From Polaromonas sp. UBA4122 (GTDB lineage: Bacteria; Pseudomonadota; Gammaproteobacteria; Burkholderiales; Burkholderiaceae_C): a stretch of DNA of 64,000 nucleotides. Position 1 is the first letter of the stretch. Every line of letters starts with the position of its first letter. Made by a program: the position numbers and the translations under genes. The DNA lies in assembly GCA_002381615.1 (NCBI GenBank), contig DFWY01000033.1, positions 63,119-127,118 on the forward strand, given 5' to 3'. The notes beneath the pieces are model-generated. The model was not told the origin of the DNA, did no database searches, and saw nothing but the letters and a program-made list of their open reading frames with translations. This document shows, piece by piece, positions 7,406-38,736 of the stretch.

Positions 7406-7482
7406 GGTGATATAGCTCAGTTGGTTAGAGCGCAGCATTCATAATGCTGATGTCGGTGGTTCAAGTCCACCTATCACCACCA
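7406..7482 (+). tRNA. tRNA-Met (CAT anticodon), CCA encoded
   Basis: A full cloverleaf can be drawn. The acceptor stem is GGTGATA/TATCACC, followed by discriminator A and encoded CCA. The D-arm is AGCTCAGTTGGTTAGAGC. The anticodon stem CAGCA/TGCTG encloses the loop TTCATAA (anticodon CAT). The T-arm is GGTGG TTCAAGT CCACC. It resembles elongator Met tRNA; a CAT-anticodon Ile tRNA read through lysidine is less likely but not excluded by eye. Confidence 0.93.
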
Positions 7483-37347: not shown

Positions 37348-38469
37348 CTATTTCGCCCGGCGTGCCAGTACCGCGGCCGACAGAGACTCCAGCACCGTCA
37401 GCGAATCGTCCCAGCCCAAGCACGCGTCGGTGATGCTCTTGCCGTATTCCAGCGCCTTGGGGTCGTCCTTGCCGGCCGTGAACTTTTGCGCACCGGGGAA
37501 CAAGTGGCTTTCCACCATCAGGCCGAACACATTGCGCGAGCCGCCAGCCACTTGGGCCGCAATGTCGCGCGCCACGTCAATCTGCTTTTCGTGCTGCTTG
37601 GAGCTGTTGGCATGGCTGCAATCGACCATCAGCGTTGCGGGAAGCTTGGCGGCTTCGAGTTCCTTGCAGGCCGCAGCCACGCTGGCAGCGTCGAAATTGG
37701 GCGCTTTGCCGCCGCGCAGTATCACATGGCAGTCCTTGTTGCCCTTGGTCTGCACCACCGCGACCTGGCCATTTTTGTGAACCGACAAAAAGTGATGGCC
37801 GCGTGCCGCCGCCTGGATCGCGTCCGTGGCAATGCGGATGTTGCCGTCGGTGCCGTTTTTAAAACCAATCGGTGCCGACAGGCCGGAAGCCAGCTCGCGG
37901 TGCACCTGGCTTTCGGTGGTGCGCGCGCCAATCGCGCCCCAGGAAATCAGGTCGCCGATGTACTGCGGTGAAATGACATCCAGAAACTCGCTGCCGGCGG
38001 GCAGGCCCAGCCGATTGATTTCAATCAGCAACTGGCGCGCAATGCGCAGGCCTTCGTCGATGCGGTAGGTTTCATCGAGGTAAGGGTCGTTGATCAGCCC
38101 TTTCCAGCCGACGGTGGTGCGCGGCTTTTCAAAGTAAACCCGCATCACGATTTCCAGCGTACCAGCGTATTTTTTGCGCTGCTCGGCCAGGCGGCGCGCG
38201 TACTCCACGGCCGCTGCGGGGTTGTGGATGGAGCATGGGCCGATCACCACCAACAGGCGGTCATCCTTGCCCGCGATGATGTTGTGAATGCTTAGTCGGG
38301 TCTGCGTGATCAGCGCTTCAACGGCGGTGCCGCGAATCGGGAAGAAGCGGATTAAATGCTCGGGAGGGGGTAGCACGGTGATGTCCTTGATGCGTTCGTC
38401 GTCGGTCTGGCTGGTTTTCTCGACGCTCGCATACCAGGTGTCGCTGGCAGAGGTGGCTTTGGCATTCAT
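37348..38469 (-). CDS. aroG: 3-deoxy-7-phosphoheptulonate synthase (DAHP synthase, class I)
   Basis: 373 aa. It condenses phosphoenolpyruvate and erythrose-4-phosphate, the entry step to aromatic amino acids. Class I alpha/beta-barrel motifs are clear: LLVVIGPCSIHNPAAAVEYA with the metal-binding Cys, MRVYFEKPRTTVGWKGLIND, GARTTESQVHRELASGLS, GFKNGTDGN and MVDCSHANSSK. The N-terminal extension is of the AroFGH type that binds a feedback-inhibiting aromatic amino acid; which one cannot be read by eye. The 210-nt leader encodes an aromatic-rich peptide and a terminator hairpin, so expression is probably also controlled by attenuation. Confidence 0.96.
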   Translation of the reverse strand: MNAKATSASDTWYASVEKTSQTDDERIKDITVLPPPEHLIRFFPIRGTAVEALITQTRLSIHNIIAGKDDRLLVVIGPCSIHNPAAAVEYARRLAEQRKKYAGTLEIVMRVYFEKPRTTVGWKGLINDPYLDETYRIDEGLRIARQLLIEINRLGLPAGSEFLDVISPQYIGDLISWGAIGARTTESQVHRELASGLSAPIGFKNGTDGNIRIATDAIQAAARGHHFLSVHKNGQVAVVQTKGNKDCHVILRGGKAPNFDAASVAAACKELEAAKLPATLMVDCSHANSSKQHEKQIDVARDIAAQVAGGSRNVFGLMVESHLFPGAQKFTAGKDDPKALEYGKSITDACLGWDDSLTVLESLSAAVLARRAK

Positions 38470-38550: not shown

Positions 38551-38582
38551 AAAAAAAAACCGCCGGGAGTCCGGCGGTTTTT
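38551..38582 (-). terminator. Attenuator terminator in the aroG leader
   Basis: On the minus strand, ACCGCCGG (38578-38571), loop ACT (38570-38568) and CCCGGCGG (38567-38560) are followed by nine T. It sits 81 nt before the aroG start and 25 nt after the leader-peptide stop. Its 5' arm is also complementary over 8 bp to 38633-38626 within the leader reading frame, giving a competing antiterminator. Confidence 0.85.
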
Positions 38583-38607
38583 GGAGATTTGTTGCGTTAC
38601 TTGAGGG

Positions 38608-38682
38608 TTACGCGAGAGTCTCTCTACCGCCGGAGGCGCTTGAGAACCAAAAGTAACCGAAATAAAATTTCGCGAAAGTCAT
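38608..38682 (-). CDS. aroG leader peptide (24 aa, aromatic-rich)
   Basis: ATG 38682-38680 opens a 24-codon frame ending TAA at 38610-38608. Residues 3-13 contain five Phe, two Tyr and one Trp, with the core F-Y-F-G-Y-F-W-F at residues 6-13. The following codons (residues 16-19) contain CCGGCGGT, the antiterminator strand. A CGCC-TCC-GGCG mini-hairpin can protect it when ribosomes run through. No Shine-Dalgarno is visible. An extended -10 (TGC TACATT, 38698-38690) would place the transcription start at or next to the ATG, so a leaderless start is possible. No known family is needed; the argument is composition plus position. Confidence 0.8.
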   Translation of the reverse strand: MTFAKFYFGYFWFSSASGGRETLA

Positions 38683-38705
38683 ATGCTTGAATGTAGCACA
38701 GGGCA

Positions 38706-38736
38706 AAAAAACGCCTGAATCACAACGGTTTAGGCG
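38706..38736 (-). terminator. Terminator of tldD
   Basis: On the minus strand CGCCT (38736-38732) overlaps the tldD stop and pairs with AGGCG (38716-38712) across 15 nt, then T7. The stem is short (5 bp) but the T-run is strong. It separates tldD transcription from the aroG leader. Confidence 0.6.

Follow-up and report, generated by a model that had tools for sequence, protein, structure and literature searches.

A conserved aromatic leader peptide and terminator upstream of aroG point to ribosome-mediated attenuation of a DAHP synthase gene in Polaromonas and relatives

Architecture of the aroG leader region

The window, i.e. the whole 64,000-nucleotide stretch of Polaromonas DNA that was analysed, carries an aroG-like gene for 3-deoxy-7-phosphoheptulonate (DAHP) synthase on its minus strand (37348..38469). 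The assignment follows from an NCBIfam match: the product scores 527 bits against TIGR00034 (aroFGH, cut-off 173). With the AroG-specific model NF006723, which would fix the isoenzyme or feedback type, it reaches 538 bits, below the cut-off of 568. Between this gene (38469-37348) and an upstream ORF on the same strand (40265-38730), which we take to be a tldD-like gene, lies a compact element with the parts of a leader-peptide attenuator. It starts with an extended -10 promoter element, TGCTACATT (38698-38690, minus), which ends 7 nt upstream of the ATG of a short reading frame; a Shine-Dalgarno sequence was not seen ahead of this ATG. The frame runs from the ATG at 38682 to a stop codon ending at 38608 (minus) and comprises 24 codons for the peptide MTFAKFYFGYFWFSSASGGRETLA. 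Five Phe, two Tyr and one Trp fall within residues 3-13, and the corresponding codons (F3, F6, Y7, F8, Y10, F11, W12 and F13; 38676-38644, minus) are the candidate control codons.

Downstream of the frame follows an intrinsic terminator (38582-38551, minus), which consists of a perfect G+C stem of 12 pairs (38582-38555) with the loop ACTC and a run of nine T (38559-38551). Its 5' arm is strand 3, AAAAACCGCCGG (38582-38571), and its 3' arm together with the T run is strand 4 (38566-38551). Within the leader frame we located strand 2, CCGGCGGT (38633-38626, minus), whose 8 nt are the complement of ACCGCCGG (38578-38571). Since strand 2 is identical to a part of the terminator 3' arm, it is able to pair with the 5' arm instead, and strand 3 is thus common to the terminator and a putative antiterminator. 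A possible 1:2 (protector) hairpin, TCTC...GAGA, around strand 2 (38645-38620, minus) comes from the predicted fold and is uncertain. The aromatic frame, the stem-loop with its T run, the 8-bp complementarity and the -10 element without a Shine-Dalgarno sequence had all been named in the original prediction, and each is confirmed on the sequence.

The predicted fold of the leader RNA (38690-38548) is stabler than all of 200 dinucleotide shuffles (z -3.39). Within the 64-kb window, the leader is the one ORF of 10-45 codons that has at least seven Phe, Tyr or Trp per 11 codons near its start, and the same search returned zero in each of 12 first-order Markov sequences of the window's length. The peptide itself had no match among the NCBIfam models at E<=1. 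Opposite the leader, on the plus strand, there is a sigma-70-like site (10 of 12 positions; 38640-38668), which is probably a by-product of the A+T-rich Phe and Tyr codons.

Occurrence of the element upstream of AroG genes

In the following, L, G and f label the loci, genomes and families of this analysis. From a scan of genome contigs for AroG the best 80 loci were taken, and in 68 of them an aromatic leader, a terminator and strand 2 were parsed upstream. The parser required a GGCGG/CCGCC core, set the register by the longest helix and preferred ORFs rich in aromatic codons. No leader was parsed at the other 12 of the best 80, namely L025 (at a contig edge), L033, L034 and L036 of Polynucleobacter, L037 and L042 of Cupriavidus, and L051, L054, L055, L056, L060 and L077. 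In the three Polynucleobacter loci aroG lies close behind the upstream gene; here the absence of the leader is perhaps a loss. At L088 and L187 a leader is visible by eye that the parser missed, and both stand outside the counts.

Removal of near-duplicates from 96 sequences left 67 relatives, which were aligned with the window by MAFFT (alignment A1), and a covariance model (R1) was built from these 68 sequences. R1 matched 290 of the 299 genomes and 137 of the 141 genera in the window's family at E<=0.01, the best E-value being 5e-10 or lower in all but one of the 290. Three of the nine genomes that had no match (G055, G161 and G205) had no AroG match either. Among 150 R1 matches listed, 100 fall in genomes that also have a listed AroG match; each of these 100 sits on the AroG strand, upstream of the gene by less than 200 nt. 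Beyond the family, R1 was found in 100 of 399 genomes of the order (E<=1e-7), in 25 of 99 genomes of f14 (E<=1e-6) and in 27 of 249 genomes of a phylum sample (E<=1e-5), 13 of which belong to other classes. Matches in the class (61 of 369 genomes, E<=0.01) mostly cover, among those listed, the 3' part of the model only, and some span the model with 23-36 bits. Full-length matches above 45 bits were obtained in four genomes of the class outside the order (three f14, one f19), all of them before AroG. Because the filters were strict and the model was trained on a few groups, these scans may miss members.

We examined 98 of the scan loci, from 60 of 88 order genomes outside f1, 20 of 25 f14 genomes and 10 of 13 genomes of other classes, the remainder being six f1 loci, one f19 locus and L231. 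An AroG homologue was present in 97, and in 96 of the 98 a parsed leader lies at most 420 nt upstream of it. As a control, none of 23 fetched weak class-scan matches (L128-L150) had an AroG homologue. The element is thus not confined to Comamonadaceae; AroG homologues of further families, and of further classes in the phylum, are preceded by it as well. It is important to note that the observed element is not a chance arrangement: a chance ORF next to an ordinary terminator is rejected by the family scan, the examined loci and the Markov control. L231 (G1293, family f232) has a 42-bit R1 match, but the stretch fetched there contains no AroG homologue; it was dropped and is possibly an attenuator of another gene.

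In the window's own genome R1 gave one full-length match (110 bits), which is the leader site. The next best match (26 bits) covers the terminator only, read at this site from the opposite strand, and away from the leader site there were only 3'-half matches of about 22 bits or less. The genome encodes a second DAHP synthase (L002, G000:C58:4089-5144), which is 55% identical to the first; upstream of it the parser found no leader.

Terminator and antiterminator pairing

In A1, 93.2% of the cells of the 3:4 helix and 85.7% of those of the 2:3 helix are paired. For the 2:3 helix, 15 cells are changed on both sides versus 4.1 in shuffled alignments, and none of 500 shuffles was as high; the number of pairs changed on both sides was reached by 36 of 500 shuffles. 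When the 2:3 partner is slid, the covariation score drops from 0.102 to at most 0.043. Since the parser required the inner GGCGG/CCGCC core, this core is no evidence for pairing. At the position after the core, in the full set of 191 leaders, strands 2 and 3 are paired in 153 versus a shuffled mean of 116 (maximum 127), and strands 3 and 4 in 184 versus 133; the shuffles, here as in A1, take all leaders alike, without correction for relatedness. Neighbouring positions of the 2:3 helix carry no signal at offset 0 (54 paired versus 50 shuffled) and offset 7 (140 versus 136), and a weak one at offset 8 (77 versus 59, maximum 73). In 38 of the 191 leaders, many of them of the Oxalobacteraceae type, the 2:3 helix is unpaired at the key position.

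The letters found at this variable position in strands 2, 3 and 4 follow the groups. They are C/G/C in 62 of 77 Comamonad-type leaders and mostly C/G/C in f184 and f191. T/A/T occurs in 11 of 12 Burkholderia-type leaders, 15 of 19 f14 leaders and all leaders of f192 (5/5), f194 (4/4), f253 (5/5) and f256 (4/4). In the Oxalobacteraceae type strand 2 is often unpaired there (A/A/T in 5 of 10), and T/A/T was seen in 0 of 7 f189 leaders. At the foot of the terminator core there is a compensated A-T to G-C change in most f14 and f185 leaders and in all f253 and f256 leaders. Taken as a sequence comparison, terminator and putative antiterminator change together, mainly at one position. An alignment of aroG upstream regions, as had been proposed with the prediction, thus reveals both conserved aromatic codons and a covarying hairpin pair. 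The longest run of 2:3 pairs is 5 in 23 leaders, 6 in 41, 7, 8 and 9 in 42 each, and 12 in a single one; the 8-pair match of the window is real and belongs to the long end of this range.

For the OFF state, a 1:2 hairpin is predicted in the window, but the leader comparison yielded no covariation for it, and the stability of the stretch around strand 2 exceeds that of its shuffles only slightly (mean z -0.55, n=191). From the 'full architecture' of attenuation that had been claimed, the ORF, the terminator and the 2:3 pairing stand, and the 1:2 hairpin has the status of a predicted fold. The stop codon begins at a median distance of 18 nt past the GGCGG core, which is also its distance in the window, and at 17 nt or more in 116 of 191 leaders. 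A ribosome waiting at the stop codon would therefore mostly scarcely cover strand 2, and the OFF state would need the 1:2 hairpin or a moving ribosome.

Aromatic codons and ribosome position

All 191 distinct leaders contain Phe codons, 184 contain Tyr, 139 Trp, and 138 have all three. Trp is present in 73 of 77 Comamonad-type leaders, 18 of 19 from f14 and 10 of 10 from f253, f256 and f260, and is scarce in Oxalobacteraceae-type (2/17), f200 (0/6), f224 (0/6) and f185 (1/6) leaders. Tyr was found in every group save the single leader L032. This divergent leader, MKNFLQFGFFKNFLTAPGAAQRV, also lies upstream of aroG; it has Phe as its sole aromatic residue and is followed by a different terminator sequence. 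The order of Phe, Tyr and Trp differs among the groups, and the peptide residues outside the aromatic run vary.

The share of aromatic codons depends on the distance to the 2:3 helix (191 leaders): it is 0.68-0.95 from ten down to four codons ahead of the helix, 0.43 at three, and 0.04, 0.02 and 0.01 at two, one and zero codons. The aromatic codons thus stop sharply about three codons, or 9 nt, before the helix. A ribosome with an aromatic codon in its A site would cover roughly the next dozen bases. With a footprint of this size, the boundary of the aromatic codons is where strand 2 would start being covered, and the control codons are so placed that a stalled ribosome would leave strand 2 free. 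TTT makes up 0.68 of the Phe codons in the leaders versus 0.14 of those in the AroG matches from the same loci, the leader share being higher at 183 of 190 loci and lower at 6. This preference may favour slow decoding or weak structure.

Start of the leader transcript

The spacing of the -10 element in the window recurs in many relatives. Across the 191 leaders, a TANNNT hexamer ends 6 nt ahead of the leader start in 22, 7 nt ahead in 45 and 8 nt ahead in 29, versus 0-6 leaders at every other distance from 1 to 44 nt. For counts by clade, wider hexamers and a nearby in-frame upstream ATG were allowed; the wider patterns were partly written after viewing the sequences, a flaw of which the TANNNT distance table is free. 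On this basis 134 of 191 leaders have a -10-like hexamer that ends 6-9 nt ahead of the start codon, including 76 of 77 of the Comamonad type, 18 of 19 from f14, 5 of 5 from f253 and 3 of 4 from f256. The spacing was seen in 1 of 10 Oxalobacteraceae-type leaders and in none from the Burkholderia type (0/12), f189 (0/7), f212 (0/5), f200 (0/6) or f184 (0/3). As the letters between hexamer and ATG vary while the spacing stays, a start at the ATG is indicated. In the lineages with the close hexamer the leader mRNA is therefore probably leaderless, as had been suspected for the window.

Discussion

The same arrangement before AroG in many relatives makes a ribosome-stalling switch on aroG very probable. 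We put the probability that aroG is controlled by ribosome-mediated transcription attenuation, in response to the charging of aromatic tRNAs, at roughly 0.86; the comparison of relatives, with its link to AroG, covariation and codon geometry, backs this reading of the locus as first proposed. To judge from the promoter, transcription would begin with the A of the leader ATG or a nucleotide beside it, and a ribosome would initiate on the leaderless mRNA and trail the RNA polymerase. A shortage of charged Phe-, Tyr- or Trp-tRNA would make the ribosome stall within codons 3-13 with its front edge just before strand 2 (38633-38626), leaving strand 2 to pair with strand 3. The terminator could then not form, and aroG would be transcribed. 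When the aromatic tRNAs are charged, the ribosome would proceed over strand 2 to the stop codon; with strand 2 withheld, strand 3 would pair with strand 4, and transcription would end before aroG. The least certain step is how strand 2 is withheld, which could be due to the passing ribosome or to the 1:2 hairpin after release.

Which amino acids are sensed is a separate matter. That the leader could report on all three aromatic amino acids, as the original prediction put it, is deduced from codons, and Trp is nearly absent from whole groups. From the codon content, leaders that keep Trp could be three-way sensors, and the others would sense Phe plus Tyr; Phe and Tyr are expected to weigh most, Trp being an addition in many lineages. 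It is a strong contender, at slightly less than even odds, that the same attenuator reports on Phe alone, or on Phe and Tyr, the Trp codons and some Tyr codons being fillers of similar chemistry. The universal presence of Phe, the strong shift of its codons to TTT and the groups poor in Trp fit such a sensor. So does the aroR leader of Corynebacterium glutamicum, whose Phe-Tyr-Phe sequence is said in a review (PMC11802643) to answer Phe and not Tyr; hence codon content alone does not settle what is sensed. Against Phe alone speak the near-constant Trp of the Comamonad-type, f14 and f253/f256/f260 leaders, at positions suited to stalling, and the Tyr codons of every group but L032.

The terminated transcript of about 130 nt, if leaderless, would resemble rnTrpL of Sinorhizobium meliloti as outlined in PMC7298713 and PMC10117765, so that the RNA or the peptide might act mainly in trans, in the manner of rnTrpL/peTrpL, with control of aroG being secondary. 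We regard this as improbable in view of the position of the element at AroG in all 100 cross-checked listed matches and in 96 of the 98 examined loci, and of the variable peptide residues outside the aromatic run. More improbable still is a ligand-dependent arrest peptide or riboswitch that works the terminator in place of codon-dependent stalling. Several leaders do have common short motifs past the aromatic run (PLAEEG, GGRE); since these encode strand 2 (GGCGG), they are explained by the RNA, and both the changing order of Phe, Tyr and Trp among the groups and the lack of any Rfam family at gathering in the scanned leaders speak against it. Finally, the hairpin might merely terminate the upstream tldD-like gene, whose ORF ends at 38730, about 150 nt before it, with the leader frame arising by chance. 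This can hardly be upheld, as the comparisons contradict it: many families have the leader ORF with its aromatic codons and strand 2 ahead of AroG, the leader persists where the upstream ORFs differ, and strand 2 changes together with the terminator.

Attenuation of aroG by its leader would be of interest because it is at DAHP synthase that carbon becomes committed to all aromatic amino acids. The aroG gene of E. coli is under TyrR control. The E. coli genes aroF and aroH are under TyrR and TrpR (PMC5343134). In bacteria like that of the window, a conserved leader-peptide switch would control the same step otherwise than by TyrR or TrpR. It would also provide a natural setting for testing how three tRNAs are weighed by a single leader and how leaderless initiation is coupled to attenuation, and the sharp boundary in the positional profile of the 191 leaders can be compared with ribosome footprints. 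More tentatively, and with a somewhat less than even chance of being right in all its parts, one homologous and mostly leaderless attenuator might act on the aromatic entry enzyme across much of Pseudomonadota. It would pool the charge of all three aromatic tRNAs in one run of codons and serve as an RNA-based alternative to TyrR/TrpR control, Trp sensing being gained in some lineages and lost in others.

The mechanism as such is classical. An attenuator at aroR-aroF of C. glutamicum was reportedly described by Neshat et al. in 2014. Attenuation of a DAHP synthase gene is known in this species (PMC11802643, PMC4046766): a short leader with aromatic codons precedes a DAHP synthase operon, and, according to the review PMC11802643, Phe limitation acts and Tyr availability does not. 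That system shares ribosome-mediated attenuation with the one proposed here, but belongs to another phylum and has a Phe-Tyr-Phe leader only; the two are likened by description, not by homology. For two Vibrio species, attenuators have been predicted upstream of aroA(I-alpha,Y)-tyrA operons, in a web list by Merino cited in PMC1173090. These proteobacterial operons are likewise led by a DAHP synthase gene (as we read aroA here), but they are of the Tyr type with tyrA. As regards the start, the trpL/rnTrpL attenuator of S. meliloti, another member of Pseudomonadota, produces an RNA that begins at the leader ATG (PMC7298713, PMC10117765); it is, however, a Trp leader before trpE, with a start site that is known, whereas that of the aroG leader is inferred. 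Leaderless leader peptides in attenuators also occur in Streptomyces lividans (PMC8079986), of another phylum; the eight leaders named there are for Leu, Trp, Ala, Ile, Met and Thr, and neither Phe nor Tyr is among them. Among the matches listed by a full-text literature search, in which some subscription papers were outside reach, there was no aroG leader peptide in Proteobacteria; the original prediction, too, knew of no described mixed aromatic leader on a DAHP synthase in this group. A conserved, often leaderless, mixed aromatic aroG leader of Pseudomonadota was thus not found in print.

Scans against Rfam gave no T-box or riboswitch at gathering in the window leader, in 17 loci or in 13 loci, and no match in 14 loci at E<=0.05. 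The Burkholderia sRNA BcKCsr7 (RF02884) scored 29.3 bits in a 291-base scan of the window versus a gathering score of 59; its identity with the leader was rejected, as 13 Burkholderia-type loci gave no match to it at gathering and the L080 leader gave none at E<=5. Phe_leader (RF01859), the leader of enteric pheA, is likewise a Phe leader with alternative hairpins and has a weak full-length resemblance to the window (28.2 bits in the 291-base scan; 18.6 in L080), but belongs to another gene and stays far under its gathering score of 55. A tRNA gene on the plus strand (7406-7479) is the sole Rfam match at gathering in the window.
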